From IMG/VR virus record IMGVR_UViG_3300027770_001980, positions 157,357 to 221,356 of that record: a DNA stretch of 64,000 nucleotides. One strand, written 5' to 3'. Position numbers and translations under genes: made by a program. The stretch is from a virus. Position 1 is the first letter of the stretch. Every line of letters starts with the position of its first letter. This document shows positions 20,149 through 50,211 of the stretch, piece after piece. A model generated the notes under the pieces. The model saw only the letters and a program-made list of their open reading frames with translations, was not told where the DNA came from and made no database searches.

Positions 20149-20164
20149 TATTTATGGCTAAATA
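20149..20164. promoter_or_regulatory. Divergent late-type promoter pair between genes 14 and 13
   Basis: Forward sequence reads TATTTA-TGGC-TAAATA: a TAAATA box on the minus strand (20154 to 20149, seven bases before the gene 14 ATG) and one on the plus strand (20159-20164, five bases before the gene 13 ATG at 20170). TAAATA is the core of the T4 late box TATAAATA. No Shine-Dalgarno precedes either gene. The spacing predicts transcription starting at or beside each ATG. Confidence 0.6.
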
Positions 20165-20169
20165 TCAGT

Positions 20170-20928
20170 ATGACCGAGAACGAAAACGAACGCCAAAAGA
20201 TAGTAGAATATGTCAAAGCCATGTTAGGCGGTGGTATGATTGACGTTGAACTTGACCCTGTACATTACAATACTGCAATTGACAGGGCATTAGCTAAATT
20301 CCGTCAAAGAAGCAGTAATGCATCTGAAGAAAGTTTTGGATTTTTAACCTTACAGTTAGATCAAAATGAATATATTCTACCACAGGAAGTCACTAATGTG
20401 CGCCAAATATTCCGACGTAGTATTGGTAGCAGATCAGGCGGCGGAAATGGTGGTACATTGTTTGAACCATTCAACTTAGCCTATAGTAACACATATCTAC
20501 TAACCTCTACTAATATGGGTGGATTGGCTACATATTTTGCATTTGCCAGTTATCAGAAGTTAGTCGGTAAGATGTTCGGCAGTGAAATCAATTTCACATT
20601 TAACAAAACTACCAAGAAACTTACAGTTATGCAACGTCCGCGGGCAGAAGAAGAAGTCATGTTATGGTTATATAACTTCCGTCCGGACTTTAACTTAATG
20701 CAGGATCAGTTTGCAGGACAATGGCTCAAAGATTATGCATTAGCGACCTGTAAACTCATGCTTGGCGAAGCACGTGAAAAGTTTGGAAGTATCGCGGCAC
20801 CATCTGGCACCACACAATTAAATGGTGCATCTCTTAAGGGTGAGGGTAAAGCTGAAATTGAAACACTTGAACTCGATTTGGTCAACTACAAAGATGGTGG
20901 AACACCATTAACATTTGTAATTGGCTAA
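20170..20928 (+). CDS. 13: Neck protein gp13
   Basis: I chose the ATG at 20170 (MTENENERQKIVEYVKAMLG) rather than the upstream in-frame start at 20074. The longer form would run backwards through the gene 14 start and its promoter, and the MLGGGMIDVELDPVHYNTAI block is the usual N-terminal region of gp13. Features such as FGFLTLQLDQNEYILP and YALATCKLMLGEAREKFG are characteristic of this family. The product is 252 residues and should form the portal-proximal neck ring with gp14. In T4 the two genes are co-directional; here they diverge. Confidence 0.85.
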   Translation: MTENENERQKIVEYVKAMLGGGMIDVELDPVHYNTAIDRALAKFRQRSSNASEESFGFLTLQLDQNEYILPQEVTNVRQIFRRSIGSRSGGGNGGTLFEPFNLAYSNTYLLTSTNMGGLATYFAFASYQKLVGKMFGSEINFTFNKTTKKLTVMQRPRAEEEVMLWLYNFRPDFNLMQDQFAGQWLKDYALATCKLMLGEAREKFGSIAAPSGTTQLNGASLKGEGKAEIETLELDLVNYKDGGTPLTFVIG

Positions 20929-20935
20929 GGAAATA

Positions 20936-20964
20936 TTGACACTGTAGCAAAAATGTAATAAATT
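20936..20964 (+). promoter_or_regulatory. Sigma-70-like promoter upstream of dNMP kinase
   Basis: A perfect TTGACA (20936-20941) is followed after 17 bp by TAAATT (20959-20964), a four-of-six match to TATAAT. The ATG of the kinase is 21 bp further on, behind AGGGG. The promoter begins just after the gene 13 stop, so the kinase could be expressed early and independently of the late genes around it. Confidence 0.5.
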
Positions 20965-20985
20965 ATAGTATCACTTAGGGGTTCT

Positions 20986-21651
20986 ATGATTATTGGTTTT
21001 GTAGGGTTAATTGGTTCGGGCAAAGATACTGCTGCGGATTATTTGGTTAATTTTCACGGCTTTAGAAGAGATAGTTTTGCCAGCACTCTTAAAGATGCTG
21101 TCGCACATGTGTTTGGATGGGATCGAACGTTACTCGAAGGACGCACAGCAGAAGCCCGAGAATGGAGAGAACAACGCGACGAATGGTGGTCTGCTCGTTT
21201 AGGCAAAAATATAACACCACGCTGGATCCTACAATATTGGGGTACTGATTTATGTCGAGTAGGATTCCACGATGACATATGGGTTGCAAGTCTTGAGAAT
21301 AAGATGCGTAAAACTGGTGATAATATTGTTATCAGTGATGTGCGTTTTCCTAATGAAATTCGGGCAATACACAATTCAGAAGGAATAGTAGTGCGTATTC
21401 AACGAGGATTAGATCCCGAATGGATGGATGCAGCGAAATCATATAACCGTGGTCCTAACAGAAACTCTAAATGGTCGTTAAGCAAAGGTAAGTTAGATAA
21501 ACTAAAAATACATGCAAGTGAATATTCCTGGGTAGGTAGTGATATTGATTATACAGTAAACAATGACACCACAATAGATTCACTGTTTGATCAGATACAT
21601 GCTATTGTTAAAGATCGGGTACCAGATCCCCTTGCCTCCAAGGCAGCTTGA
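20986..21651 (+). CDS. 1: Deoxynucleoside monophosphate kinase (T4 gp1-like), 221 aa
   Basis: Phosphorylates dNMPs to dNDPs for phage DNA synthesis. The P-loop GLIGSGKDTAADYL at 7-20, in a protein of this size and with DVRFPNEIRAI around residues 118-128, is the signature of T4 gp1-type kinases. It has its own AGGGG Shine-Dalgarno and an apparent sigma-70 promoter. Its 3' end overlaps by 44 bp, tail to tail, with the zinc-finger HNH-like gene on the minus strand. An early enzyme placed between neck and sheath genes. Confidence 0.85.
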   Translation: MIIGFVGLIGSGKDTAADYLVNFHGFRRDSFASTLKDAVAHVFGWDRTLLEGRTAEAREWREQRDEWWSARLGKNITPRWILQYWGTDLCRVGFHDDIWVASLENKMRKTGDNIVISDVRFPNEIRAIHNSEGIVVRIQRGLDPEWMDAAKSYNRGPNRNSKWSLSKGKLDKLKIHASEYSWVGSDIDYTVNNDTTIDSLFDQIHAIVKDRVPDPLASKAA

Positions 21652-21943
21652 GTTTGTGTAATATTCGTTGACAGTTAGCACACACTGTCTTAAGATTTGT
21701 ATACCTACAATTAGTTGGATTCCCGTCAATATAGAATACATTAAACTGTTCTATATATTTAGAAGTAAAGCCACATTTATCGCATGTGGCTTTCTTTTTG
21801 TATCCTGATTTCTGCCATAGCGGGGTGCCATCCTTGCGGTGGCTGGCACAATGATCACATTTAGATCTGTAGAAGGCTCTACCTTCTTTATAATAGTTAA
21901 CAGCAACGGGTCTTTGCCCGCATTCTTTACATAGATTTCTCAT
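21608..21943 (-). CDS. Zinc-finger HNH-like protein (possibly nuclease-inactive), 111 aa
   Basis: I start at the ATG at 21943 (MRNLCKECGQRPVAVNYY), preceded by AAAGGG and a minus-strand TAAATA box at 21973-21978; the frame is open up to 22024. Four CxxC pairs (CKEC, CDHC, CDKC, CANC) suggest two zinc sites. The segment VFYIDGNPTNCRYTNLKTVC lines up with the HNH consensus HHIDGN..NN...NL..LC, but the first catalytic His pair is replaced by Phe-Tyr. It may therefore be a degenerate endonuclease or a zinc-binding structural/regulatory protein. Similar genes are common near sheath genes of T4-like phages (recalled). Confidence 0.65.
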   Translation of the reverse strand: MRNLCKECGQRPVAVNYYKEGRAFYRSKCDHCASHRKDGTPLWQKSGYKKKATCDKCGFTSKYIEQFNVFYIDGNPTNCRYTNLKTVCANCQRILHKLKLPWRQGDLVPDL

Positions 21944-21972
21944 ATGCGCCCTTTTGTTGCCCTTTTCACTTG

Positions 21973-22009
21973 TATTTAACCCCTTGTTTTTTTCAAGACC
22001 GGCTAAATA
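21973..22009. promoter_or_regulatory. Divergent late-type boxes between the HNH-like gene and gene 18
   Basis: A minus-strand TAAATA (21978 to 21973) lies 29 bases before the ATG at 21943, and a plus-strand CTAAATAA (TAAATA at 22004-22009) lies 31 bases before the sheath ATG. Both genes have a Shine-Dalgarno within these leaders (AAAGGG and AGGAGA respectively), unlike the genes whose box is five bases from the ATG. Confidence 0.6.
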
Positions 22010-22040
22010 ACTCAAGTAATCCAATTAGGAGATATTACAT

Positions 22041-25010
22041 ATGGCAACTTTGAATTCACCAGGCGTAAGCGTATCAGTAATTGACGAGAGTTTTTACACA
22101 ACATCGGCTCCAGGCACCGTGCCTATGATATTTGTAGCGTCAGCACAAGATAAAACAAATCCAAGTGGATCAACAGCACTCGGAACCACCGCAGCTAATG
22201 CTGGTAAAGTTTGGTTGATGACCAGCCAACGTGATCTAACCGACACGTTTGGAACACCGAAATTTTATACAGATGCAAGCGGAAATCCTCAACACGGAAA
22301 CGAGTTGAACGAATATGGACTACAGGCAGCTTATAGTGCATTAGGTGTTAGTAGCCGTGCATATGTAGTTAGAGCAGATATTGACACCGGGATGTTAATT
22401 CCAACCAGTAATATACCAAAAGGTGAACCAGTTGGTGGTACATATTGGGTCGATACTAATGCCAGCCAATATGGTATTAAAGAATGGAATAATACTACAA
22501 AGAAATTTACAGTTAAGACTCCATTGATACTAAACGACGATTCTACATCAGACGAAATAGACATGGGAGAACCTACTTCCAATGTTGGTAAAGACGGCGA
22601 TTACTGCATAGTAGTAACTAAAGATAATGAAAACAGTCTTTATCATAGAGCAAGTGGTACTTGGAATTTAGTATATGACACCTTTGAAGGCGGCAAGTCT
22701 GTACAAATTAGTACACATTATGATTATCCTGATACAACCAGTTGGACAACAGGTAGTATATGGATTACCACAACAACAGCAACCAATGGAGCAAAATGGA
22801 CTGTTAAGAGATATAATAGTGCATCTCAGGGATGGGATACTGTTACTGCTCCTTTATACAGCAGTATTCCAGCAGCTACAAAAGCTATCGACGGAACCGG
22901 TGGACTAAACATCGCAACTGGTAGTGTATTCATCGAAACAGATTATAATCAAAGTGATAGTCAAACAGCAACATTTAAATTATGGAGACGTGCTCATAAA
23001 GGTATTACCAGCATTGTTAGTGCAGCAAGCACTGCTGTTACTGCCAGCCAGGCGTATGACTTTAAAATTAGAGAAACCACAGCGGGTTCCGATACATGGA
23101 GTTCCTGGATCGATGGTACAGTCATGGGTGATGGAGCCAAGACATTTGGATCAGCATTAGCAGACGCTATCAATTCAATGGGAACAGATAACATCTCGGC
23201 CAGTTATAATTCTACCACACACAAAATTACAGTAAGACATAATTTAGGTGGTGATTTTGAGATCCGAGATACTACCGATCCATTTTCGTCAGCAGGATTC
23301 ACTGTATATAATACTGTAACCAAGACAGGTACCGATAATCTATATACGCCTAACACAGGTGATCAAGGTGACAATGCAACTTTCTTAGCCACCAACTGGA
23401 AAGCATTAGTATACGAAGCTAAAAATGATGCTCCTTATACTACACCATCGGATGGCACATTATGGTGCAATGCAACCCACGACGAAGTTGACATCATGAT
23501 ACACGATGGTTCAACATGGGTAGGATATGCCACCGTATATCCAGATGCAGATCCACTTGGCCCTATCGTTGCGGTAATTGAGCCAATTGAACAAAGCGAT
23601 GGTAGCGATCTTGTAGATGGAGATATTTGGGTATCTACTGCAAACATGGATAGATACGGCAATGATCTTTATGTGTATGACTCAACTATCATGACTGGTA
23701 GCAAGTGGGTAGCACAGGATACAACAGATCAGTCAAGCCCAACAGGCTGGTTATTTGCAGATGCACGTTGGTCAAACAGCGGTACAGATGACTTCGAATA
23801 TTTAGAAAGCATTCCTAATCTGTTAGTTAGCGATTACTTAGATCCCGATGCTCCTGATCCTGCATTATATCCAAAAGGTATGCGTTTATGGAATACACGT
23901 CGTAGTGGTAACAATGTTAAGAAATTCGTTTCTGGATACATTGACATCACTGCTAACGATGGATTGAATACTCGCTATCAAGATGAAGATATGGCAGCTT
24001 ACAATATCGATCGTTGGGTAAGTCAAAATAATGTTGCAGAAGACGGGTCCGGTGTATTTGGCAGATTAGCACAAAGAGCACAGGTAGTCGCAGCCTTGAA
24101 AGAAACAATAGACACTAACTCATTGATTAGAGATACAGATACAGTAGTGTTTAATTTGATCGTAGCACCCGGATATTCTGAAGCTATTGCTAATATGGTT
24201 AGTTTCAACACTGATCGTGGAATCACCGCTTTCGTCATCGGTGATACACCATTTAGATTAAAGCCAACTGGTACAGACTTAGCAGCCTACGGTAAAAATA
24301 CTAATTTAGCATTGGATAACAATGACAAAGGTGCAGTCACACATGATGAATACATGGCTATGTATTACCCAAGTGGTTATACCAATGATAATTCTGGTAA
24401 CTATATTGTTGTTCCACCGAGCCACATGATGCTAAGAACATTCATTAATAACGACAATAAGAGTTATGTATGGTTTGCTCCAGCTGGAACTCGTCGTGGT
24501 GGTATTGATAATGCTACAAGCGTTGGATATATTACTGAAGAAAATGAATTCAAAACTGCGGCAATATATCAATCACTACGCGATGTTATGCAAGATCCAA
24601 CAGTTCAACTTAACCCGATCGCTACACTGGTCGGCGCTGGTTTAGTAGCATTTGGTCAACGTACTCGTGCAAGAAATGCCAGCAGTTTAGATAGAGTTAA
24701 TGTTGCTCGTTTAGTTTGCTACTTACGTCGTCAATTAGATATTCTTGCAAGACCATATTTGTTTGAACCTAACGATGCACAGACCCGTCGTGAGATCAAA
24801 GCGGCTGCAGAAAGTCTAATGCAAGAGTTAGTAGGACAACGAGCATTATATGACTACATCGTAGTATGCGATGAAAGTAATAATACTCCTTCAAGAATTG
24901 ACCGTAACGAATTGTACATGGATATTGCTATTGAACCTGTTAAGGCAATCGAGTTTATATACATTCCGTTGAGACTGAAAAATACTGGCGCAATCAAAGC
25001 TGGTTTATAA
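22041..25010 (+). CDS. 18: Tail sheath protein gp18, 989 aa
   Basis: The N-terminus (LNSPGVSVSVIDESFYTT) and the C-terminal half (the block at about residues 884-948 including ARLVCYLRRQLDILARPYLFEPND) are the conserved parts of T4-like contractile sheath proteins. The protein is 989 residues against 659 in T4. The excess lies in the middle (about residues 120-560) and includes repeated beta-rich motifs of the form GTYWVDT, GSIWITT, GTLWCN and GDIWVST followed by WNL or W..V, which look like surface-exposed insertion domains. It has a strong AGGAGA Shine-Dalgarno and a late-type box. It contracts to drive the tube into the host. Confidence 0.92.
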   Translation: MATLNSPGVSVSVIDESFYTTSAPGTVPMIFVASAQDKTNPSGSTALGTTAANAGKVWLMTSQRDLTDTFGTPKFYTDASGNPQHGNELNEYGLQAAYSALGVSSRAYVVRADIDTGMLIPTSNIPKGEPVGGTYWVDTNASQYGIKEWNNTTKKFTVKTPLILNDDSTSDEIDMGEPTSNVGKDGDYCIVVTKDNENSLYHRASGTWNLVYDTFEGGKSVQISTHYDYPDTTSWTTGSIWITTTTATNGAKWTVKRYNSASQGWDTVTAPLYSSIPAATKAIDGTGGLNIATGSVFIETDYNQSDSQTATFKLWRRAHKGITSIVSAASTAVTASQAYDFKIRETTAGSDTWSSWIDGTVMGDGAKTFGSALADAINSMGTDNISASYNSTTHKITVRHNLGGDFEIRDTTDPFSSAGFTVYNTVTKTGTDNLYTPNTGDQGDNATFLATNWKALVYEAKNDAPYTTPSDGTLWCNATHDEVDIMIHDGSTWVGYATVYPDADPLGPIVAVIEPIEQSDGSDLVDGDIWVSTANMDRYGNDLYVYDSTIMTGSKWVAQDTTDQSSPTGWLFADARWSNSGTDDFEYLESIPNLLVSDYLDPDAPDPALYPKGMRLWNTRRSGNNVKKFVSGYIDITANDGLNTRYQDEDMAAYNIDRWVSQNNVAEDGSGVFGRLAQRAQVVAALKETIDTNSLIRDTDTVVFNLIVAPGYSEAIANMVSFNTDRGITAFVIGDTPFRLKPTGTDLAAYGKNTNLALDNNDKGAVTHDEYMAMYYPSGYTNDNSGNYIVVPPSHMMLRTFINNDNKSYVWFAPAGTRRGGIDNATSVGYITEENEFKTAAIYQSLRDVMQDPTVQLNPIATLVGAGLVAFGQRTRARNASSLDRVNVARLVCYLRRQLDILARPYLFEPNDAQTRREIKAAAESLMQELVGQRALYDYIVVCDESNNTPSRIDRNELYMDIAIEPVKAIEFIYIPLRLKNTGAIKAGL

Positions 25011-25014
25011 TAGG

Positions 25015-25020
25015 TAAATA
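25015..25020 (+). promoter_or_regulatory. Late-type TAAATA box of gene 19
   Basis: GGTAAATAA begins four bases after the sheath stop codon. The tube gene ATG is 22 bases after the box and is preceded by AAGGAG, so this is a conventional leadered late gene. The tube protein needs high output, which fits a dedicated promoter. Confidence 0.5.
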
Positions 25021-25042
25021 ACATAGATTAAGGAGCATTTAT

Positions 25043-25693
25043 ATGCCGGTTTCAAGTTTAAATAGATTTACAGTACCATTATCCGGAACACAAGGTGGCG
25101 GAACACAGGGACTGTTGATGCCAAAACTAAAGTATCGCTTTCGCGTTACTTTGGATCAGTTTGGTATTCCTGGACAACCAAGTACAGAATTAACCAAACA
25201 AGTTATTACTGTAAGTCGCCCGGAACTTACTTTTGATGATGCTACATTGGAAGTATACAACAGTAGAATTAAGTATCTTGGTAAGCACAAGTGGGGCGAT
25301 CCAAAATTAAAAATTCGTGATGATGCCAGTGGTGTTGTTAGTAAGAAAGTCGGTGAACAGTTACAGAAACAATTTGACTTCTTTGAGCAATCAGGTGCAG
25401 CATCTGGTATTGATTATAAGTTCAGAATGCGTGTAGAAATTCTCGACGGCGGCAATGGTGCTTACGAGCCTGTTACACTTGAAAGTTTTGAATTCTTAGG
25501 ATGCTTTGTTAAACAAGTAACTTATCAAGGTGGTGACTACGCTTCTAATGACGCAATGGATATTGAAATGACTTTATCAGTTGATAATGTAATCCAGTTA
25601 GAAGCACCTGGTGGTGCTTCCAGCGGTATTGGATTAGATATCGGCAGAGTGGTTCGCCCACCAACCGCACAAGGTCTCGGTACAGGCGGTTAA
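25043..25693 (+). CDS. 19: Tail tube protein gp19, 216 aa
   Basis: Follows the sheath gene as in T4. The region from residue 25 (PKLKYRFRVTLDQFG) through GIDYKFRMRVEILDG and FEFLGCFVKQVTYQGGDYAS matches the conserved T4-like tube fold. The length is slightly above T4 (163 aa), with an added Gly-rich C-terminal tail (APGGASSGIGLDIGRVV). It polymerises into the inner tube through which DNA passes. Strong Shine-Dalgarno, own late-type box, and followed directly by a terminator. Confidence 0.9.
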   Translation: MPVSSLNRFTVPLSGTQGGGTQGLLMPKLKYRFRVTLDQFGIPGQPSTELTKQVITVSRPELTFDDATLEVYNSRIKYLGKHKWGDPKLKIRDDASGVVSKKVGEQLQKQFDFFEQSGAASGIDYKFRMRVEILDGGNGAYEPVTLESFEFLGCFVKQVTYQGGDYASNDAMDIEMTLSVDNVIQLEAPGGASSGIGLDIGRVVRPPTAQGLGTGG

Positions 25694-25714
25694 TCAATAA
25701 CGTCCTCCAAGCAG

Positions 25715-25739
25715 AACCTGGCTTAAACCCCAGGTTTTT
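25715..25739 (+). terminator. Rho-independent terminator after gene 19
   Basis: AACCTGG (25715-25721) pairs with CCAGGTT (25730-25736) around an eight-base loop, followed by a TTTTT run. A new TAAATA box starts eleven bases past the stem, so transcription units are cleanly separated here. Confidence 0.8.
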
Positions 25740-25746
25740 CTTTGGC

Positions 25747-25752
25747 TAAATA
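25747..25752 (+). promoter_or_regulatory. Late-type box five bases before ATG (25758)
   Basis: GGCTAAATAATAAT directly precedes the ATG. The box-to-ATG gap is exactly five bases and there is no purine-rich ribosome site between the upstream terminator and the ATG. This predicts a leaderless mRNA. Confidence 0.55.
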
Positions 25753-25757
25753 ATAAT

Positions 25758-26990
25758 ATGAGTAATAGTCAAGCAAATGGATATTTAATAAACGCCGCCG
25801 GTGCTATAGGCAAACCTATCATGTCAGATTGGCAACATGCGAGTAAATTGTATGTTGATGAACTTTATAAAAGAGCTCCAAAATTTGGATTTCTTTATTT
25901 TGTAAATTTTAATATTGTTAGAAATGATACGATAATGGATCAAGGGTGGAAAGAGGAAGGATCCTATCAAGTTGGATTACTTGCTAAGAAAATTGATCTT
26001 CCTAAATTTTCAATCGAAACTGAAACATTAAATCAATATAACAGAAAAACAGTTATACAAAAAGGAATCAAATACAATAATATAAATGTAGAATTTCACG
26101 ACGACCATGGAAATATTGCAAATAATCTCTGGGTAAATTACTACAAACATTATTATTTTGATAGCCAACAACAACCAGAAGCATATCACGATACAAAATA
26201 TCAAAATACAGATTATCAATACGGAAGATATAATAATGATTTAAAACCAAGTAATTTTTTCGGAACTATTGAAATATTTGTATTGAATCAAAAAAGATTT
26301 ACAAAATATACATTGGTCAATCCAAAAATTACAGAGTGGAAACACGACGAAGTAGCTCAAGATGCTGGTAGTAAAATTTTACAGAATAGCATGACTATAG
26401 CATATGAAAATGTTTTATATGATGAAGGCGTGGTTGATGCAGATTTCGCAGGGCAGTTTTATGATAAAACACAAAGCCCTACGACACTTGGTCCAGACAA
26501 TGAAGTTTTATATAAGAAGAGGCTTGAATCACCATTTGATAAACCCGGCAAAGATACTGTGTTTAGCAACAGACCGCGCCCTCGTGGATTTGATAACGAG
26601 TTTGGAAAAAGAGACTTTAAAAAAGAGAAAGGTGCATTTCTTCCATCTGGTAATTTTGATAAAACATATAATCCAAGAACGTATGGAGCAATACGACCTA
26701 AAGCACCAGGCCAATTTTCACTGATAGCAGGTATATTGATGAACAATTATCTCAATCAAAATGGACTTACAAGACAAACTGCTACGGCATATAATATAGC
26801 AGGTAGTGTAATGAAGGCGACATTGAGTTCGGGTGCAGGAAAATATGCCGACCCACCAAGTACAGAAACAGCACCGGGTGTATTCCAATTGCCAGGCGGG
26901 GTTGGAATCAATATTTTCAAAGGATTTAATACCACAGTAGATGGTGGCATAAGAGCCAATCCTGCTGCTATATTATTCCCAAGCAGGTAA
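25758..26990 (+). CDS. Tube-like baseplate protein (gp54/gp48-like candidate), 410 aa
   Basis: Residues 40-125 have the general tail-tube fold pattern: GFLYFVNFNIV, then KIDLPKFSIETETLNQYNRK, then INVEFHDDHGN and NLWVNYYKHYY, as in gp19-related tube and tube-initiator proteins (T4 gp54, gp48). The C-terminal 150 residues are unrelated, Pro/Gly/Lys-rich and probably extended. Its place two bases-spaced genes after the tube gene supports a tube-initiator or tube-cap role, but the assignment is by fold pattern only. Preceded by a TAAATA box at five bases and no Shine-Dalgarno. Confidence 0.6.
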   Translation: MSNSQANGYLINAAGAIGKPIMSDWQHASKLYVDELYKRAPKFGFLYFVNFNIVRNDTIMDQGWKEEGSYQVGLLAKKIDLPKFSIETETLNQYNRKTVIQKGIKYNNINVEFHDDHGNIANNLWVNYYKHYYFDSQQQPEAYHDTKYQNTDYQYGRYNNDLKPSNFFGTIEIFVLNQKRFTKYTLVNPKITEWKHDEVAQDAGSKILQNSMTIAYENVLYDEGVVDADFAGQFYDKTQSPTTLGPDNEVLYKKRLESPFDKPGKDTVFSNRPRPRGFDNEFGKRDFKKEKGAFLPSGNFDKTYNPRTYGAIRPKAPGQFSLIAGILMNNYLNQNGLTRQTATAYNIAGSVMKATLSSGAGKYADPPSTETAPGVFQLPGGVGINIFKGFNTTVDGGIRANPAAILFPSR

Positions 26991-26995
26991 TAAAC

Positions 26996-27798: not shown

Positions 27799-27811
27799 AA
27801 TAAGTAATATT

Positions 27812-28288: not shown

Positions 28289-28294
28289 TAAATA
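28289..28294 (+). promoter_or_regulatory. Late-type box five bases before ATG (28300)
   Basis: AATAAATAATACT runs straight into the ATG; the last A of the upstream stop codon precedes the box. Gap is five bases and no ribosome site is visible. Same geometry as at 25747, 29577 and 31178. Confidence 0.5.
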
Positions 28295-29545: not shown

Positions 29546-29573
29546 AAATAGCCTCTTCGGAGGCTATTTTTTT
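29546..29573 (+). terminator. Rho-independent terminator before gene 17
   Basis: Stem AAATAGCCTC / GAGGCTATTT closed by a TTCG tetraloop (29556-29559), followed by seven T residues in a row ending at 29573. A textbook terminator, with the gene 17 promoter box four bases later. Confidence 0.92.
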
Positions 29574-29576
29574 CAT

Positions 29577-29582
29577 TAAATA
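29577..29582 (+). promoter_or_regulatory. Late-type box five bases before gene 17 ATG
   Basis: ATTAAATAAGATT directly precedes the ATG at 29588, immediately after the terminator. There are only 14 bases between the T-run and the ATG, so any transcript of gene 17 from here must be nearly or fully leaderless. Confidence 0.6.
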
Positions 29583-31173: not shown

Positions 31174-31183
31174 TAAATAAATA
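31174..31183 (+). promoter_or_regulatory. Tandem overlapping late-type boxes before ATG (31189)
   Basis: TTTAAATAAATAATAGC contains TAAATA at 31174-31179 and again at 31178-31183. The second is exactly five bases before the ATG. No Shine-Dalgarno is present. Confidence 0.55.
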
Positions 31184-31188: not shown

Positions 31189-33804
31189 ATGAAACCTATA
31201 CAAATTATCTCCCAGGACCTATTTGACAAAGTACGTAGTCGTTTTACCAATTTAGAAATGGGTGACGAAACGGGTGCTGTCACAATCGATCCTGCTGAAG
31301 CACGTTTCTTTGATTTTGACTTCGTTAATGAAGGGGTCAATCTCGGACGTGTAAGCATCAGTTTAAACGATCTCGGCAGTTTAAAAATCTACTACAGCCA
31401 AGGCATTACCGAGAACCAAGATGATGTTGCTACACAAATGTGGTACAATTTCCTTAAAGAAATGAGATTGTTTTCCATGCGTAGATTGTTAAGATTTGAT
31501 ACAAGAGATATCGCAAAGACCAATTTAGATAAGAACGATTTTCAACATTTGGCCGCAACACAAGGCCCTAAGGAAGAACCAGATATGAATAATACTATGA
31601 ACGAATCACGTTGGAACCATAAAAGTTCCAGAAAAACCAGCCGTGCAGTACAAGGCAAAACAGAAGTTATTGTACGTCACGCACATCCAGTAGAAGAAAC
31701 ATATCCAGGCGCACGTAGCCAAGCCAAAAATATTAAAGCAATCTTTATTCAGAATCACGATGGCGAACGTTTCAAGTATCCATTTATACACACCGCAGGT
31801 GCGTTCGCAATGGCACAACACGTAGACCACGGCGGCGTTCCACATGATCCAGCAGGCAAAGCAATTATTAAAATGAGTGAGAATATTGCAAAGTTAGGCG
31901 AATTCCAACGACAAATACAACGTAGTTCCTTGCACGACGATGCACATGGAATTGCGGAACGAGCCATAGGCCACATGAATGAACTCAAGGCAAGAGTAGC
32001 AGCACTCGGAAAACGTCATCACTACGAAGCATGGAGAGAAGATTTTGAAATGTCAGGCATGGGTGATGACACCGACGAAATGGTTCTTGACGCAGTAACA
32101 TTAGAAGATTATAAAAGTAAATTTACACAAACAAACTTCCAAGAAGAATTAGTTGGATTTTTTCCGCTACTACACAGAATCATGAGCGAGACCAACGCAG
32201 TCGATCTTGAAGAATATGTATCAGAGCAAAGCGTAACAGAAGATCCGGATAGATTAGGAATTGGCCAACAAATGGCTCGTGACGGAATAAAATATAGTCC
32301 AGATAAAGAAAACGAACTTATTGATTTAATGGCTCAATACATGAAGAAAAATGGGATGAGTTCAAAAGAAATTCGATATCATCTAAATTACGATGAGGAT
32401 TATATCCCCGATCAACTAAGTGACTTACCAAAAGAAGGTAGTAGTGAAGGACCGCCATTTGACTCAGACACAAAATCCAACTTCAGCAAACCCAATAATC
32501 CAAATCGTACAGGCATGGATTCTGCTCGAGCACTAGCACAACGTGGAATGTCACCAGCAGAAAGTATTAACACTTTTGAAGAGTGGGCCAATGCAACCGA
32601 ACAAGGCAAATTAACAGACGAACAGATCCGGGAACTTAAGGCAGCAATTGAGGCATTACCACAAGGACCACAAGGCCCTGAATTAGACTTTGATACCGCA
32701 CATAATTTTTTCAGCGAGTTCGGGCTCGACGACAAAGAATTGCAAAAATCATTACAAGACGAACAAAGTAGAAATCCTGAAATACAGGCAACTCCATTAC
32801 AAATATTCCAATCATGGGCTAACGAAAATTATCCAGAATTATTAACATCATTAGGCATGACAGGAGAAGAACCTGCTCCTGAGGCTCCACCAGAAGAGGC
32901 ACCTCCACCGGAAGCCGGAGCAGCACCAGCAGCACCTGCACCAACAGCACCACCTGCACCCGAACAACCAGTTGCAGAAGGTAAGGGTAACAAGGTAGTT
33001 CAGGAAGTGGCAAAGATTGTTAAGAGTTTTTACAATCAATCTAACGAAAGCGTTGGGCCATTCCGTGCTCCAGAGAACATCGCATTGGATTGCAAAAAGA
33101 CAGTTACTGAAAAGTTTGGTGAGAAAGCTGGCGAACAAGCATACGAAATGGCAGAAGTATTTATTAACAAACTAACACAAGAATGGCATCAGAAACATGG
33201 ACACGTAAAACAGAATCCTGTAGATCACGGCGATGGACTAAGTGTTGATAGTTTGAAAGAAATTTTAGGCAGAATCAAAAGCAAAGTAGAAGGCATCAGT
33301 CAACCAGCAGAAGAAACACCTACAGATGAAACTGCTATAGGAAATGCTTTGTATACACAACGAAAACCACAAGAAAAACCAGCACCACAGAATAATAAAC
33401 CAGAAGAAAAATCAGATGACGATAGTATTCTTGGTAAAATTAAGAATATGTTCTCAGCAACCTACGAAGACAACAAAGAAAAAGACAATTGGCATCCGTC
33501 AAAGCACATCACCGATCCACAAAAGAAAAAAGAACTTGCACCACATGATAAAGATGTAGAGCGTGGCAGTTATGCCGATCGTGCTGCTTATTTAGATGCT
33601 GCTGGTGTCAAACGTACACAAGAAGAAGGCTCCAAAGATGATTTTAGAACACATGGTATGGACAGCCAACCAAGTAAGGAAAAACCAAACGGAAATCCAG
33701 CCCCAACAGATTGGAAAAAAGATCCTATCGCGGCTACAACAGATAGAGCATACGATGCCGGTAAAGCAGCACTACAGAGATTAGCAGGCATTAGAAAAAA
33801 ATAA
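31189..33804 (+). CDS. Large conserved phage protein of unknown function, 871 aa
   Basis: An N-terminal domain of about 115 residues (FDFDFVNEGVNLGRVSISLN) is followed by a middle domain of about 150 residues (KNIKAIFIQNHDGERFKYPF, then GAFAMAQHVDHGGVPHDPAG). A helical section, a Pro/Glu/Ala linker near 563-600 (EEPAPEAPPEEAPPPEAG) and a charged C-terminus complete it. The middle domain is one I recall from hypothetical proteins of other T4-like aquatic phages. No catalytic motif is seen. Its place after gp17 in a late unit suggests a virion or packaging-linked role. A terminator-like element follows. Confidence 0.65.
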   Translation: MKPIQIISQDLFDKVRSRFTNLEMGDETGAVTIDPAEARFFDFDFVNEGVNLGRVSISLNDLGSLKIYYSQGITENQDDVATQMWYNFLKEMRLFSMRRLLRFDTRDIAKTNLDKNDFQHLAATQGPKEEPDMNNTMNESRWNHKSSRKTSRAVQGKTEVIVRHAHPVEETYPGARSQAKNIKAIFIQNHDGERFKYPFIHTAGAFAMAQHVDHGGVPHDPAGKAIIKMSENIAKLGEFQRQIQRSSLHDDAHGIAERAIGHMNELKARVAALGKRHHYEAWREDFEMSGMGDDTDEMVLDAVTLEDYKSKFTQTNFQEELVGFFPLLHRIMSETNAVDLEEYVSEQSVTEDPDRLGIGQQMARDGIKYSPDKENELIDLMAQYMKKNGMSSKEIRYHLNYDEDYIPDQLSDLPKEGSSEGPPFDSDTKSNFSKPNNPNRTGMDSARALAQRGMSPAESINTFEEWANATEQGKLTDEQIRELKAAIEALPQGPQGPELDFDTAHNFFSEFGLDDKELQKSLQDEQSRNPEIQATPLQIFQSWANENYPELLTSLGMTGEEPAPEAPPEEAPPPEAGAAPAAPAPTAPPAPEQPVAEGKGNKVVQEVAKIVKSFYNQSNESVGPFRAPENIALDCKKTVTEKFGEKAGEQAYEMAEVFINKLTQEWHQKHGHVKQNPVDHGDGLSVDSLKEILGRIKSKVEGISQPAEETPTDETAIGNALYTQRKPQEKPAPQNNKPEEKSDDDSILGKIKNMFSATYEDNKEKDNWHPSKHITDPQKKKELAPHDKDVERGSYADRAAYLDAAGVKRTQEEGSKDDFRTHGMDSQPSKEKPNGNPAPTDWKKDPIAATTDRAYDAGKAALQRLAGIRKK

Positions 33805-43324: not shown

Positions 43325-43326
43325 AA

Positions 43327-44229: not shown

Positions 44230-44690
44230 TGAAACAGAAATTTATTGACTTATATATGGACTGGGCTGAACGCACAGCCCAACTCAGTCACGCAGAAAGA
44301 CTTAAGGTAGGTGCGGTCATCGTAAAGGATGACAGCGTGATCAGCTACGGCTACAACGGCATGCCCGCAGGTTGGGATAATACCTGCGAGGTTGAGATCG
44401 GCCAGGTGCTAGACGATAATGATAATATTGTTGAAACAAGATTAAAAACTAAACCAGAGGTATTACATGCGGAAATGAATAGTTTAATGAAACTTGCTAA
44501 AAGTACAAATTCAGGAAATCAAGCATCTATGTTCATAACACATTCTCCTTGTTTGGAATGTGCCAAGGGAATTTATCAAGCAGGTATAAAAGAAGTATTT
44601 TACGGCCAGGATTATCGTTCCGAAGACGGAATAGTTTTTTTAAAAAAGTGCGGGATTAAAATAGAAAAAATAATTAAAGATGATAAATAA
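44226..44690 (+). CDS. Deoxycytidylate (dCMP) deaminase, 154 aa
   Basis: Converts dCMP to dUMP for dTTP synthesis. The zinc site is HAE at 81-83 (in VLHAEMN) with PCLEC (Cys109, Cys112). The N-terminal block LKVGAVIVKDDSVISYGYNG is the family substrate region. 154 residues matches short dCMP deaminases rather than T4 Cd (193). Start in a four-base overlap with the GT11 gene. Confidence 0.9.
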   Translation: MMKQKFIDLYMDWAERTAQLSHAERLKVGAVIVKDDSVISYGYNGMPAGWDNTCEVEIGQVLDDNDNIVETRLKTKPEVLHAEMNSLMKLAKSTNSGNQASMFITHSPCLECAKGIYQAGIKEVFYGQDYRSEDGIVFLKKCGIKIEKIIKDDK

Positions 44691-44715
44691 AAGTACTACA
44701 TGCCGAAGCACTTTT
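44684..44715 (+). promoter_or_regulatory. TAAATA box and hairpin abutting the HNH endonuclease start
   Basis: TAAATA (44684-44689) overlaps the deaminase stop. AAAAGT then CT pairs with AG then ACTTTT, with one mismatch, across roughly 44690-44715, and the ATG follows the right arm at once. Free-standing phage homing endonucleases often combine a late promoter with an RNA hairpin that hides the ribosome site in early transcripts, so this is probably the same device. Confidence 0.45.
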
Positions 44716-45357
44716 ATGAAACATAAACATCACATTATACCGAGACATATGGGAGGTTCCGACGATTTAAATAATATAATAGAACTTTCTGTAGAGGAGC
44801 ATTCACAAGCACATCTTAAACTTTACGAACAATATGGAAAGAAAGAAGATCTGTGTGCTTACTATATGTTATCAGGAAAATCCCAAGATCCAGAATTTAA
44901 AAAAATGGTATGCTCTTTAGGTGGAAAAGCAACTGCAAAAATTAGAAAAGCATCAGGAGAAAAATGGGGATTTGGTTTGCTAAATCCTGATGAATTATTT
45001 GAAATGCAATCTAAAAACGGAAAAATACAAGGTAAAAGAAATGCAGAATCTGGACATATTCAACGAATACAAAAATTATCAGATACAATTGCTGCTGGGA
45101 AGAAAGGCGGAAAAACAACAATGGCAAGAGGAAAAGGTTCGTTTGCTGATCCTGAAGAAAGATTAAAATCTGCAAGTAAAGGCGGAAAAACACAGGGAAA
45201 ACGAAATGCCGAGTCTGGACACTTAAAAAGAATAGCGCAGATTCCGAGTAAGAAAAACAGAGGTATGTTTTGGATTACAAACGGAATTGAAAATATGATG
45301 ATAAATCTAATCGATATTATTCCAGAAGGTTATAAAAAAGGTAGAGTGATAAAATAA
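44716..45357 (+). CDS. HNH homing endonuclease, 213 aa
   Basis: I start at ATG 44716 (MKHKHHIIPRHMGGSDDLNN) because the HNH core begins there; the frame is open from 44680. The core is HHIIPRHMGGSDDLNNIIEL followed by SVEEHSQAH, the phage HNH homing type. The C-terminal half has two near-copies of QGKRNAESGH (an internal duplication) and KGGKT repeats, NUMOD-like DNA-recognition units. It lies between dCMP deaminase and the DnaE-like gene, whose start overlaps its stop (TAATG). Probably a mobile element inserted in the operon. Confidence 0.85.
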   Translation: MKHKHHIIPRHMGGSDDLNNIIELSVEEHSQAHLKLYEQYGKKEDLCAYYMLSGKSQDPEFKKMVCSLGGKATAKIRKASGEKWGFGLLNPDELFEMQSKNGKIQGKRNAESGHIQRIQKLSDTIAAGKKGGKTTMARGKGSFADPEERLKSASKGGKTQGKRNAESGHLKRIAQIPSKKNRGMFWITNGIENMMINLIDIIPEGYKKGRVIK

Positions 45358-45932
45358 TGGATATCGATATCGACTTTCCAGATAGAAAACGAGTACTTGA
45401 TATAATCCGGCACATTCCAGCACGTCTCGAAGATGGAAAGAAACATAACACAGGTGTCTATTGTCACAGTATTCCCTACAATCCATTAACTGATACTGCC
45501 AGTATCGATTATAAATCTGCAGAGGAACGTGGATACTTTAAGATCGATTTCTTAAATGTTGGTGCGTATAACGGTGTCAAGGATGAAGGTCATCTTGTAG
45601 AATTACTTAATACTGAACCACTGTGGGATTTGCTGTGTGAGAAGGACGTATGTGATCAATTGTTCCATATCAATGGATATCATAACTTATTGGCAGAGTT
45701 GAAACCTAAGAGTATTGTAGAATTAGCCACGGTCCTGGCTATGATCAGACCCGGTAAAAAACATTTGATCCCAGTATGCAAGGAAAAAGGATTCCAGGCC
45801 ATCTATGATGAAATATGGACTAAGACTGAGGATTCCTATTTCTTCAAGAAGGCCCACGCTATATCTTATGCGTCGGTTATTGTAGTTCAACTTAACCTCC
45901 TATGTGAGCGAATTAGTTACGGGTACTCTTAA
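45357..45932 (+). CDS. Miniature DnaE-like (C-family polymerase alpha) protein, 191 aa
   Basis: The N-terminus MDIDIDFPDRKRVLDII matches the PDIDIDF palm motif of bacterial DNA polymerase III alpha, giving Asp4 and Asp6. KHNTGVY resembles the HaaGVV motif, and GYFKIDFLNVGAY (Asp64) matches KFDFLGL, the third catalytic aspartate. Then LLAELKPKSIVELATVLAMI, RPGKKH and FFKKAHAISYASVIVVQLNL follow the DnaE finger-region order. No PHP, OB or beta-binding domain is present, so it is about a sixth of DnaE. Similar proteins exist in other T4-like aquatic phages (recalled). Catalytic ability is untested; it may be a repair enzyme or a repurposed fold. Confidence 0.7.
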   Translation: MDIDIDFPDRKRVLDIIRHIPARLEDGKKHNTGVYCHSIPYNPLTDTASIDYKSAEERGYFKIDFLNVGAYNGVKDEGHLVELLNTEPLWDLLCEKDVCDQLFHINGYHNLLAELKPKSIVELATVLAMIRPGKKHLIPVCKEKGFQAIYDEIWTKTEDSYFFKKAHAISYASVIVVQLNLLCERISYGYS

Positions 45933-46290
45933 CAGACCGTACTAATTGTATTGATTTTCTTTTTATACGCTTTTCAGCAATTTCGCTGAGATTCACTGTG
46001 GGCCCAAATAATATCTCAACATCTTTACTGCTGAATGTTTTGATATAAGGTTTAAAATCCTGCATCTCTTTTTTTAGAAATATGTTAATTGGTATTTTCC
46101 TATTGCTTTCCCACCACCAAACTTCACCTAATTCTAAAAACATTTTCTTTTCATTTTCTTCAATGATCATTGATAGATCGTATATGCTGGATACATAATC
46201 ATCACAGTTGATAATTATACCGACATATTCCTTGTCATTGGACTTTAGACAGGAAATAAAGGGGAATTTGTCCTGGAATTGATTACTCAT
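45913..46290 (-). CDS. Conserved T4-like phage protein of unknown function, 125 aa
   Basis: On the opposite strand from its neighbours, its 3' end overlaps the DnaE-like gene by 20 bp. Blocks DKFPFISCLKSNDKEYVGII, GEVWWWESNRKIPINIFL and FGPTVNLSEIAEKRIKRKSI, QLVRSVK recur in T4-like genomes as a small regulatory-looking protein (recalled). It is basic at the C-terminus, so RNA or DNA binding is possible. I know of no demonstrated function. Confidence 0.65.
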   Translation of the reverse strand: MSNQFQDKFPFISCLKSNDKEYVGIIINCDDYVSSIYDLSMIIEENEKKMFLELGEVWWWESNRKIPINIFLKKEMQDFKPYIKTFSSKDVEILFGPTVNLSEIAEKRIKRKSIQLVRSVKSTRN

Positions 46291-46301
46291 TGAAGTTTAA
46301 A

Positions 46302-46307
46302 TAAATA
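46302..46307 (+). promoter_or_regulatory. Late-type box four bases before ATG (46312)
   Basis: TTTAAATAAATACATT precedes the ATG with TAAATA at 46302-46307 and a gap of four bases; an overlapping copy starts at 46298. No Shine-Dalgarno is present. It marks the structural gene that follows as late, although it sits among replication genes. Confidence 0.5.
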
Positions 46308-46311
46308 CATT

Positions 46312-47145
46312 ATGCAAATTTTACCAATCTATTTATACTTAAATAAACTCGATGTGACACTAGATTTGGACGCTGCAATCAGAGGAGTAAATCAGGTTAT
46401 GTATCAACGAGACCTAACAATACAAAAAGGAATTAAGAATCAAGTAAGGATTCAATTCAAAAACAGCGATCAAAAACGTATATCTATCTCCGACACACAA
46501 ACATTCGTGTTTACTATGTTTGATGCTATAAATCAACGTATGCTCTTAGAAAAACAACTTGAGGTATTGGCAGAAACCACCAGTACTAAGGGCATGGCTC
46601 TATTGACTCTTACTGAAAGTGATACTCTCGATCTTGATAAATCCAGCTATACTTACAGTGTAAAGGTATTAGATTCTGATGGAACTTATACTCCTGCATA
46701 CGCCAATGTTTACTACGGAATGAACGGTACTTTACATATCTCCAATGATGTATTTCCGGTGTTGAAAGATAGCACAACTGTTACCAGTTTTAATGCGACA
46801 TTTAATGATCTTACAAGAAAATATGAACATAAGAGTGGAAACATATATGCTAATCCAGAATTCAACGGTAATTCCGCATTGAATACCGTAGCAATTTATA
46901 TGACTGCATATAAAGGTACTGTTTACATACAGGGAACATTAGATAATACTCCAACCGGCGATAGTAGCTATTACACCATTTCTACCCATTCTTATGATAG
47001 TTACACAGGAGTTGATTATAAAAACTTTAATGGTGTATATACCTATATACGTATTGTGCATGTTCCAGCTACAAGACCCGCTGATTCGGATAATAATGAC
47101 CCAACTTACTTCGGATCACTTGACAAAGTCCTATATAGAAGTTAA
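46312..47145 (+). CDS. Putative virion/baseplate structural protein, 277 aa
   Basis: The N-terminal ~130 residues (QVMYQRDLTIQKGIKNQVRI then QFKNSDQKRISISD, TFVFTMFDAINQRMLL) form a beta domain I recall from hypothetical virion proteins of T4-like aquatic phages; its layout resembles fibre-attachment (BppU-like) domains. The C-terminal half is beta-rich with many Tyr/Asn/Thr. No enzyme motif. A late box four bases from the ATG agrees with a structural role. Exact placement is unknown. Confidence 0.6.
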   Translation: MQILPIYLYLNKLDVTLDLDAAIRGVNQVMYQRDLTIQKGIKNQVRIQFKNSDQKRISISDTQTFVFTMFDAINQRMLLEKQLEVLAETTSTKGMALLTLTESDTLDLDKSSYTYSVKVLDSDGTYTPAYANVYYGMNGTLHISNDVFPVLKDSTTVTSFNATFNDLTRKYEHKSGNIYANPEFNGNSALNTVAIYMTAYKGTVYIQGTLDNTPTGDSSYYTISTHSYDSYTGVDYKNFNGVYTYIRIVHVPATRPADSDNNDPTYFGSLDKVLYRS

Positions 47146-47153
47146 AATAGTGC

Positions 47154-48155
47154 ATGAACGAAGTTCAGGCATCTTTACACACACTGTTACCTCCAAATAG
47201 AAAACTAACCACAGGCGGTTGGGTTAGTTTCAACGCGGTCTGCTGTCATAACAGAGGTGATCGCCCAGATACTAAAAAGCGTGGTGGTGTCCTCTTTACA
47301 GATGACGGTTTTACCTATCATTGCTTCAACTGTGGATTCAAAGCCGGCTGGAGCCCTGGTAAACTATTGAGCTCTAATACCAAATCATTGTTCAAATGGT
47401 GCGGTATGGGTGACAGTGATATAAGCAGATTGGGATTGATAACTCTTAAATTCAAAGAGGATCAACCGCAAACTAAACGTGCATTAAACTTTGTTTTGCA
47501 AGAAAGAGAATTGCCAGAAGGTGCGATGCTACTCAAAGAGTGGGCACTGGCAGTTTGGAAACCCGGCGAAGATGCAGACATGGTGCGAGTCTTTGAATAT
47601 CTTGTCAGTAGAGGAATGGAACTCGATTGGTATGATTGGATGTGGACACCCGCTCCTGGATACAAGGATCGATTACTCATACCTTTCTATCACGATGGTA
47701 AGGTAGTTGGATATACTGGTCGTAAAATAACAGAAGGTAAACCGAAATACCTTACAGATAGCCAGAACGGTTATGTGTTTAACCTCGATAGGCAGACCTA
47801 TGACAGATCTTGTGTTATAGTTGTTGAAGGACAATTTGATGCTATAGCAGTAGATGGTGCGGCTATAATGACCAATGAACCAAACGAAACCCAATGTGCG
47901 AGATTGAATGCCATGGGTAAACAGATAATAGTGGTTCCGGATAGAGATCGCCCTGGTGCAAAATTAGTCAAGGCAGCATTGGATAACGGCTGGGCTGTGA
48001 GTTTACCACCGTGGGAAGATGATGTCAAGGACGTTGCTGATGCTGTTAAACGATACGGCAGGCTTTATACACTAACCACGATATTACATTACCAAGAAAC
48101 AAATAAGATAAAAATACAGTTGATACAGAAAAAATTAGAGGCTATGAATGAATAA
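47154..48155 (+). CDS. 61: DNA primase gp61
   Basis: Makes RNA primers for lagging-strand synthesis with gp41. A zinc-binding N-terminal domain uses Cys30-His... and CFNCGFKAGWSP (Cys57, Cys60 region). The TOPRIM-like core shows VVEGQFDAIAVDG with the catalytic Glu, and VVPDRDRPGAKLV with the DxD. GRKITEGKPKYL is the RNA polymerase basic region. 333 residues, equal to T4 gp61 (342). Its stop overlaps the gp41 start by eight bases, matching coupled expression of the primosome. Confidence 0.93.
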   Translation: MNEVQASLHTLLPPNRKLTTGGWVSFNAVCCHNRGDRPDTKKRGGVLFTDDGFTYHCFNCGFKAGWSPGKLLSSNTKSLFKWCGMGDSDISRLGLITLKFKEDQPQTKRALNFVLQERELPEGAMLLKEWALAVWKPGEDADMVRVFEYLVSRGMELDWYDWMWTPAPGYKDRLLIPFYHDGKVVGYTGRKITEGKPKYLTDSQNGYVFNLDRQTYDRSCVIVVEGQFDAIAVDGAAIMTNEPNETQCARLNAMGKQIIVVPDRDRPGAKLVKAALDNGWAVSLPPWEDDVKDVADAVKRYGRLYTLTTILHYQETNKIKIQLIQKKLEAMNE

Positions 48156-49632
48156 AAAAGAGAAGAAACCAAACTATAATGCAGATATGCAGAAACTATA
48201 TCTGGAGATGTTTCTTTCAGATGCGGAGACATTTGTAAGATGTCAGAACATATTTGATCCACTTAACTTTGATCAAAGATATCAAGATACTGCGGAATTT
48301 ATTACCAAATATGTTGATGACTATAAGGTCATGCCCGAAGCCAGTATTGTAAATGCTAACTGCAAAATGGATCTACAACCAGTTCAGTTGGCCAGAGAAA
48401 ACTATGATTGGCTTATGGATGAGTTTGAGAACTTCAGCAGGCACAAAGGACTTGAACGTGCGATCGTGGCCAGTGCTGACTTACTTGAAGTAGGTGATTA
48501 TGGTCCGGTAGAGAAACTGATCAAAGATGCGATCCAAATTAGTTTAAACAAGGACATGGGCACTGATTACTTTGAAGATCCCAGAGCACGTCTAAGCAAA
48601 CTCAAAGATGGTAATGGACAAGTTAGTACAGGATGGCCCAGCATTGATAAGAAACTATACGGTGGATTCAATCGTGGTGAACTGAATATCTTCTGTGCAG
48701 GATCCGGCGGAGGTAAGAGTTTATTCTTAGCAAACTTGGGTGTGAACTGGGCACTTGCAGGTATGAATGTATTGTATCTTACATTCGAGTTGAGCGAGGG
48801 CCTTGTGGCTATGCGTTTGGACAGTATGATGACAGGTATCACAACACGCGAGATCTTTAAGAATCTTGATGAGGTTGAACTCAAGGTCAAAGTATTGGGT
48901 AAGAAGTCCGGAAATCTACAAGTCAAATATATGCCAAGTGGTAAGAACTGTAATGACATTCGTGCTTACTTGAAAGAGTATCAAGTTAAGAAAGGCTGTA
49001 AACCCGATGTTATCCTAATCGATTATTTGGACTTGATGATGCCATTAAGCGTGAAGATTAGTCCAAGTGACTTGTTTGTCAAAGACAAATATGTCAGTGA
49101 AGAAATACGTAATTTAGCAATGGAAACACAATGTGTTACTGTAACTGCAAGTCAGTTAAATCGTAGTGCAGTTGAAGAGATTGAATTTGATCACAGTCAT
49201 ATCTCGGGCGGTCTGAGTAAGATTATGACAGCAGATAATGTGATCGGTATCTTTACAAGTCGTGCTATGAAAGAACGCGGACGTTATCAAATACAGTTCA
49301 TGAAAACTCGTAGCAGTAGCGGAGTTGGACAAAAGGTTGAATTAGAATTTAATATTGATACATTACGAATCACAGACGCAGGGGATGACGATACTGCCAG
49401 TTTTAATCAGGGTGGGGGTCAATCATCTAACAGCAGCGGTGGTAGTTCTATGATGTCTGGATTTAAACGTACCAGCACAGTGAGCACCAGCACAGACGAA
49501 CCTGTTAATACTAAATGGGAAAGAGCAACACCCGTTGAGGGATTTGATTTGAGTAAACCTCAAGTCAAGGGTGTTAAGGCAGTCAGCGATATTAGATCAA
49601 TGCTGGCTAAAATGAACGAAGAAAAAGATTAA
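48148..49632 (+). CDS. 41: Replicative helicase gp41 (DnaB-like)
   Basis: Hexameric 5'-3' helicase driving the phage fork. Walker A is AGSGGGKS (184-191) in LNIFCAGSGGGKSLFLANLG, Walker B PDVILIDYLDLM, and the DNA-binding/arginine-finger region AMKERGRYQIQFMKTRSSSG near 370-389. The C-terminus is a Ser/Gly-rich linker plus an amphipathic tail. 494 residues (T4 475). Its stop overlaps the AlgH-like gene by four bases tail to tail. Confidence 0.95.
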   Translation: MNKKEKKPNYNADMQKLYLEMFLSDAETFVRCQNIFDPLNFDQRYQDTAEFITKYVDDYKVMPEASIVNANCKMDLQPVQLARENYDWLMDEFENFSRHKGLERAIVASADLLEVGDYGPVEKLIKDAIQISLNKDMGTDYFEDPRARLSKLKDGNGQVSTGWPSIDKKLYGGFNRGELNIFCAGSGGGKSLFLANLGVNWALAGMNVLYLTFELSEGLVAMRLDSMMTGITTREIFKNLDEVELKVKVLGKKSGNLQVKYMPSGKNCNDIRAYLKEYQVKKGCKPDVILIDYLDLMMPLSVKISPSDLFVKDKYVSEEIRNLAMETQCVTVTASQLNRSAVEEIEFDHSHISGGLSKIMTADNVIGIFTSRAMKERGRYQIQFMKTRSSSGVGQKVELEFNIDTLRITDAGDDDTASFNQGGGQSSNSSGGSSMMSGFKRTSTVSTSTDEPVNTKWERATPVEGFDLSKPQVKGVKAVSDIRSMLAKMNEEKD

Positions 49633-50189
49633 AACCAACTGGCTACTTGTTCTCTGCTGGATTCAGCAATAACTCTGTGCCATTGATCTATGTCTGTGTA
49701 ACCGAATAAAGTTTCAGGTTCTGCACGGGTAAATGACCAACTGTGATTAATGGTCCAGGGATCTTCGCCTAACACTTCACCATCTAAATGTCTTGGTAGC
49801 CAACGCACAAAACCTGCGATGGCTCTGAAATATGACGGCCCTTCATTGTTACTGATAGCACTTAATACAGACAAGTCACTACTGATTCCAATTTGATCAG
49901 TTACTTTATTTGTAGTTGGGCTGAACCAATCTAACGTATGTATAACGTGTATTCTATTTGTAGACTCTGGACCACCATTGTATAGTGGTTGATCGTTAGG
50001 CATTGTCAATCCTACATTTCTCATAACACTATCAAACGTGACATTACTGACATATGGTTTGTTAATTTGCAGACCAATGGCACCGGCACTGTCATGATCT
50101 ATTACCAATACTGTACTTCTACGTAGAACGGAATCCGTTCTTTTAGGATGTGCCGCTAACAGATGTCCTGTATAATTTTGCTCTATCAT
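49629..50189 (-). CDS. YqgE/AlgH (DUF179, UPF0301)-like protein, 186 aa
   Basis: The fold's blocks are present in order: GHLLAAHPKRTDSVLRRSTV, LVIDHDSAGAIGLQINKP, LYNGGPESTNRIHVIHTLDW, SSDLSVLSAI and FVRWLPRHLDGEVLGEDPW. These match the bacterial AlgH family, whose members in Pseudomonas influence alginate and virulence genes but whose molecular role is unsettled. A phage copy is unusual in my experience. The ATG is five bases after a minus-strand TAAATA box and has no Shine-Dalgarno. It is divergent from a nucleotidyltransferase-like gene and convergent with helicase 41. Confidence 0.75.
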   Translation of the reverse strand: MIEQNYTGHLLAAHPKRTDSVLRRSTVLVIDHDSAGAIGLQINKPYVSNVTFDSVMRNVGLTMPNDQPLYNGGPESTNRIHVIHTLDWFSPTTNKVTDQIGISSDLSVLSAISNNEGPSYFRAIAGFVRWLPRHLDGEVLGEDPWTINHSWSFTRAEPETLFGYTDIDQWHRVIAESSREQVASWF

Positions 50190-50194
50190 ACATC

Positions 50195-50211
50195 TATTTA
50201 ACCGATAAATA
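50195..50211. promoter_or_regulatory. Divergent late-type promoter pair, AlgH-like and NTase-like genes
   Basis: Reads TATTTA-ACCGA-TAAATA. The minus-strand box (50200 to 50195) ends five bases before the AlgH-like ATG at 50189; the plus-strand box (50206-50211) ends seven bases before the ATG at 50219. This is the same layout as at 20149-20164. Neither gene has a Shine-Dalgarno. Confidence 0.55.

Follow-up and report, generated by a model that had tools for sequence, protein, structure and literature searches.

Why does TAAATA, the core of the T4-type late promoter, end only four to seven bases before the ATG of several virion genes in this phage, and could the late mRNAs of these genes be leaderless? 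An earlier note proposed that they are where the gap is five bases, and that they then form a translation class distinct from late genes with a distant box and a Shine-Dalgarno (SD) sequence. The window (i.e., the whole 64,000-base stretch of DNA analysed) covers bases 157357-221356 of a 221,356-base IMG/VR virus record, the ends of which are not closed and the remainder of which was also read. The phage is a member of the T4 superfamily, encoding tail sheath, tail tube, terminase, a gp13-like neck protein, UvsX, a DnaB-like helicase and primase, with 41 tRNA genes in the record. Judging by the terminase, its closest cultured phages are PA5oct-like Pseudomonas phages (~55% identity); a DNA-level search of a phage collection gave no close relatives, and a host search in genome contigs gave a single weak match, leaving the host unresolved. 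A gp55-type late sigma is encoded at about 132.3 kb of the record (T4 gp55 match 2.4e-8; PHROG 'sigma factor for late transcription' 2.9e-82). A search with T4 gp45 as query did not find a sliding clamp, the query being maybe too distant and the record being incomplete.

Genes were called with a simple, home-made, hexamer-based caller that favours ATG. Clade statistics are based on five genomes (this record and four further ones of the same clade), and orthologue starts were read in terminase-bearing relatives (80 loci, 70-92% identity); these relatives share ancestry, so that counts of genomes or orthologues are not independent samples. Start codons were assigned from homology and codon pattern, without support from protein N-termini. 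All the TAAATA boxes quoted in the earlier note were found at the distances from the ATG that it gave, and its contrast with genes where a distant box is accompanied by an SD was confirmed as well (sheath, 31 bases; tube, 22; a 76-aa gene, 43; with AAGG/AGGAG). The boxes are as follows.

9000..9005, plus strand: late box seven bases before ATG 9013 (1392-aa protein); conservation not shown.
20149..20154, minus strand: late box of a divergent, gene 14-like structural gene, seven bases before its start at 20141 and 4 bp away from the opposite-strand box; gap 7 in 35/35 distinct relatives.
20159..20164, plus strand: late box TAAATA five bases before ATG 20170 (gp13-like neck gene, head-tail adaptor Ad2).
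22004..22009, plus strand: late box of the tail sheath gene (22041), given for contrast, at 31 bases and with AGGAG.
25015..25020, plus strand: late box of the tail tube gene (25043), likewise for contrast, at 22 bases and with AAGGAG.
25747..25752, plus strand: late box five bases before ATG 25758 (tail tube-like protein); gap 5 in 53/53 relatives.
28289..28294, plus strand: late box of a gene for a virion structural protein, five bases before ATG 28300, at a distance that switches among relatives.
29577..29582, plus strand: late box of the gene for the terminase large subunit (gp17), five bases before ATG 29588; gap 5 in 72/76 relatives.
31178..31183, plus strand: late box five bases before ATG 31189 (virion structural protein), overlapped by a second box at 31174-31179.
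46302..46307, plus strand: late box four bases before ATG 46312 (virion structural protein).
50195..50200, minus strand: late box five bases before ATG 50189 (AlgH-like, DUF179); gap 5 in 5/5 distinct relatives.
50206..50211, plus strand: late box on the divergent side, seven bases before ATG 50219 and separated by 5 bp from the box on the minus strand.

The distances of these boxes are largely kept among relatives. The gap at 20170 is five in 13/13 orthologues and in 35/35 distinct intergenic regions, that at 31189 is 4-7 in 77/77 relatives, and that at 46312, where an overlapping box (46298-46303) lies at eight bases, is five in G001, G002 and G003 and in the PA5oct homologue (24% identity). 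The distant box of the sheath gene stays at 27-39 bases with an SD in 37 relatives, and that of the tube gene, where present, at 19-23 (42/50), with AGGAG; the minus-strand gene at 52282-53169 also has its box 31 bases upstream, with AAAGG. For gene 9013 only distant matches were found, none with a box, so that this case rests on sequence alone. Near-start boxes also precede the genes of the phage-encoded AlgH-like protein (window 49629-50189, minus strand; Pfam DUF179 1.6e-23) and of a ferritin-like protein (L006:15458-15898; Ferritin 4.7e-17), the latter with its box seven bases before the ATG.

The TAAATA core of the TATAAATA-like T4-type late box is thus enriched and conserved before late genes, even if the hexamer is rarer than expected in the window as a whole (52 vs 84 in shuffles). 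The short spacing is not confined to the genes that the earlier note had listed, as 21 called starts of the 221-kb record have TAAATA at 4-7 bases, against a flat-rate expectation of 3.2 (Poisson p 5e-11), and against 1.5 (maximum 6) in a column shuffle that keeps the base composition of each position. A lack of genome-wide enrichment, named in the earlier note as an outcome that would refute it, was thus not what was observed, and its prediction stood. The four further genomes of the clade have 16, 18, 13 and 12 such sites (p 5e-7 to 1e-8), the range over all five being 5e-7 to 5e-11. When the five genomes are pooled, the distribution of spacings is two-humped, with 80 sites at 4-7 (45 of them at exactly 5), three at 10-14 and a broad second mode at 15-35, usually with an SD; the near-empty zone in between corresponds to leaders too long for a leaderless mRNA and too short for an SD. 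TAAATA is a clear outlier among the A4T2 hexamers and the few other AT-rich ones tested, and neighbouring AT-rich hexamers have no comparable peak, except for two that overlap TAAATA by five bases. The start codon is ATG in 79/80 short-gap genes versus 963/1040 other genes, the caller favouring ATG in both. No conserved upstream hexamer that could pass for a -35-like element was obvious in the alignments, which were inspected by eye only.

SD-like sequences precede only 1/21 short-gap genes of this genome, versus 24/31 long-gap ones. The earlier statement that near-box genes have no visible SD is therefore true, but it carries little weight as independent evidence, since a box occupying positions -11 to -6 takes up the place of an SD and nearly forces its absence; as a stand-alone argument the missing SD was rejected. 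More telling is gene 28300, where a box at 5-8 bases goes with an SD-like sequence in 0/39 relatives and a box at 17-20 bases in 16/17 (with an SD-like pattern slightly broader, GGAA included, than that of the genome-wide test). At this gene, promoter distance and translation signal change together among orthologues.

The spacer between box and ATG also bears on the start site. At gap five it exists in 12 variants at 20170, 24 at 25758 and 33 at the terminase gene, and since its five bases vary whilst the gap is constant, what is held is its length and not its sequence, with the exception of the last base. This -1 base is a pyrimidine in 138/138 gap-5 orthologues of these three genes and, clade-wide, in 72/80 short-gap genes versus 536/1030 others (p 3e-12), the bias being weaker in the 4-base cases (12/17). 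Bacterial transcription usually prefers to start with a purine preceded by a pyrimidine. Of the leadered late genes of T4, 21/25 have a purine six bases past the box. According to a review of T4, the 8-bp late box begins at -13, roughly one helical turn upstream of the transcription start (PMC2988020). Its last base is then at -6, so that +1 comes six bases further on, which with a gap of five is the A of ATG. By analogy with T4, the purine at that position would mark +1, exactly where the A of ATG falls in the gap-5 genes. For the seven-base group the reading has to be refined, as the predicted transcripts would have leaders of 2-3 nt and be near-leaderless rather than leaderless. In this group ACT often stands directly before ATG (here at window 20142-20148, minus strand, as well as in relatives), ACTATG being found in 22/22 of the gp14-like starts listed and in many 28300 orthologues too, which suggests a constrained leader of three nucleotides.

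At two of the genes the space upstream of the box is taken by a predicted intrinsic terminator.

25715..25743, plus strand: intrinsic terminator, an AACCTGG/CCAGGTT hairpin with a T run, ending 3 bases before the 25758 box.
29546..29573, plus strand: intrinsic terminator, AAATAGCCTC/GAGGCTATTT with a T run, just before the terminase box.

A terminator-like structure is present in 45/46 distinct relatives at 25758, with 32 different complementary stems, and in 55/57 at the terminase gene, with 17. As far as can be read from the DNA, terminator, promoter and AUG would thus be packed end to end at both genes. Elsewhere the space is taken by another gene: at two unrelated loci a pair of divergent genes has 28-29 bp between its two starts, and both boxes lie within this stretch. 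In the gp14-like/gp13-like pair, all 35 distinct intergenic regions have gaps of 7 and 5, and 30 of them measure 27-29 bp; in the AlgH-like/50219 pair, all five have gaps of 5 and 7 and a length of 29 bp. Such pairs leave no room for a leader. Their boxes being 3-5 bp apart, we infer that two polymerases could hardly bind simultaneously, and the back-to-back pairs (window 20142-20169 and 50190-50218) could act as mutually exclusive promoters.

The reading proposed here is that gp55-type late promoters fire 0-3 nt from the AUG of these genes, giving leaderless late mRNAs beside SD-led ones, to which we assign a probability of roughly 0.87. It is an inference, as no transcript 5′ end has been mapped in any member, and it draws on what was observed in the DNA, i.e., the identity of the box, the gp55 homologue, the spacing statistics, the conserved gaps, the terminators, the divergent pairs, the -1 pyrimidine and the SD switch of gene 28300. 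The short-gap boxes could still be late promoters without being what the ribosome depends upon, if translation came mainly from longer transcripts started upstream, by coupling or SD-free initiation. Genes 28300, 31189 and 46312 start only 11-21 bp past the preceding ORF, so that read-through transcripts could include them. This cannot be extended to 25758 and the terminase gene, where nearly all relatives have a terminator directly upstream of the box, nor to 20170, 20141 (minus), 50189 (minus) and 50219, which have no upstream cistron because a divergent neighbour starts 28-29 bp away; it also leaves the fixed gap length and the -1 pyrimidine unexplained, and we consider it improbable.

Less credible still is that TAAATA next to the AUG is no promoter at all but an AU-rich element for SD-free ribosome entry. 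AU-rich sequence before a start codon can help SD-free initiation, and the box does sit where an SD would. Yet SD-led late genes have exactly this hexamer too, 15-35 bases upstream, no similar enrichment is seen for other AT-rich hexamers, and five tRNA genes, for which translation plays no part, have the same box at 4-7 bases. That the starts are misannotated, the gene calls being computational, or that the spacing is an artefact of composition, has been largely refuted and hardly deserves further credit. Alignments of the orthologues begin at residue 1, and where codons 2-13 differ, it is mostly in the third position; in the five genes tested, none of the first 37 codons offers an alternative downstream start preceded by an SD. 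As for composition, the column shuffle yields 1.5 sites where 21 are seen, and T4 has none with the same caller.

If late transcription does start at the AUG, the mechanism might run as follows. TAAATA would be the -10-type box of gp55-dependent, T4-type late promoters, an assignment based on box identity, the encoded sigma and conservation, from which the activity of the boxes as promoters is itself inferred. Host RNA polymerase carrying the phage sigma would start on the A of AUG at gaps of 4-6, and 2-3 nt before AUG at a gap of 7, the exact position being deduced from the spacing and the pyrimidine bias. Leaderless mRNAs are typically translated by 70S ribosomes that recognise the AUG at the 5′ end. 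The resulting leaderless or near-leaderless mRNA, having no SD, would presumably be translated via recognition of its 5′-terminal AUG, a ribosome step put forward from known leaderless mRNAs such as that of lambda cI (PMC4965119). In other late genes this box would lie 15-35 bases upstream, and translation would rely on an ordinary SD. It is tempting to speculate that there are two late translation channels, SD-led for the bulk tail parts (sheath, tube) and leaderless for the packaging motor, the neck and other virion genes, that the leaderless set is selectively translated when the ribosome state or initiation factors shift late, and that the arrangement originated independently in the cultured Pelagibacter phage HTVC008M; we regard this extension as doubtful. 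Translation factors encoded by the phages themselves were rejected as the cause of the short-gap class, to which their distribution shows no link: ribosomal protein S21 was not found in this record or in G001 but is present in G002, HTVC008M and PA5oct, and a search for IF3 found none in any of these five.

In the textbook view, late genes of T4-type phages are SD-led. T4 differs from the present phage in the position of its box, mostly 21-29 bases upstream of a start with an SD and with no site at 4-7 under the same caller, but shares with it the TAAATA core, the gp55-type sigma, the virion genes downstream and the AT-rich start region (PMC2988020). Directly before TAAATA there is often A or G here and then A or some other base, which brings the box in part closer to the Aeh1 variant (PMC2988020). 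Nor is the short-gap class a property of all T4-like phages, an idea rejected since only 0-2 sites were found in the tested parts of T4 and eight others (PA5oct, Atu_ph07, Phosso, Syn9, P-SSM2, Melnitz, S-SKS1 and DLP6). PA5oct, the nearest cultured relative, has only two short-gap genes in 140 kb, one of them a distant homologue of window gene 46312. The PA5oct record is annotated on the basis of RNA-seq and has a box five bases ahead of the ATG at 144985. HTVC008M, also of the T4 superfamily, has 11 genes with TAAATA at 4-7, nine of them at exactly 5 (p 2e-5), but belongs to another branch (Kyanoviridae) and its boxes run TAAATAG. Its relatives Melnitz and Mosig lack the class, with 0 and 1 short-gap sites, respectively, in the 50 kb sampled of each, which suggests that it arose separately in HTVC008M. 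One study could not predict late promoters in pelagimyophages (PMC7029224), and no published leaderless late mRNAs of T4-like phages were found in the literature searched.

Outside the T4 superfamily, a parallel is that of bacterial TA-led leaderless genes, which lack an SD but have a -10-like box some 10-12 bp upstream of the start codon, and which likewise coexist with SD-led genes and switch class between orthologues (PMC3160421). Their boxes are of the host sigma-70 type, whereas here it is a phage late-sigma box, in a virus-encoded system, before genes mostly of the late/structural class. In lambda cI the 5′ end of a phage mRNA is also the AUG of the coding sequence (PMC4965119), but this is a single repressor gene with a host-type promoter and not a late virion class.

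The box is also found near genes of other sorts. Four of the 41 tRNA genes have TAAATA 4-7 bases before their 5′ end (L003:10859-10872, 12984-12994, 13686-13699 and 16604-16617), and there is one more in G001 near 2513; late transcripts would begin there at the mature end or 1-2 nt before it. In or near the tRNA region lie three genes (L003:11272-11991, plus strand; L003:17160-17891, minus; L004:2469-3287, minus) whose products begin with similar MKIAILLSG/MRIAILLPGEPRF sequences, two of the three matching phrog_13607, each with a box 4-6 bases before the ATG, as if promoter and gene travel together. Small minus-strand genes in a region of higher G+C (window 58581-63837) are preceded instead by a repeated block, 'tataatacacac...aaGGAGca', probably representing early promoters.

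If the leaderless reading is true, a single short element of some 14 bp combines promoter and start codon, a terminator, a promoter and an AUG can follow one another without a break, and such starts escape gene finders based on the SD as well as promoter filters. Orthologues found in both classes would offer a clean natural system for asking when leaderless translation is favoured, and HTVC008M, being cultured, a case that can be tested. It would also mean that an abundant environmental lineage of phages has, unlike T4, a conserved class of leaderless virion genes.
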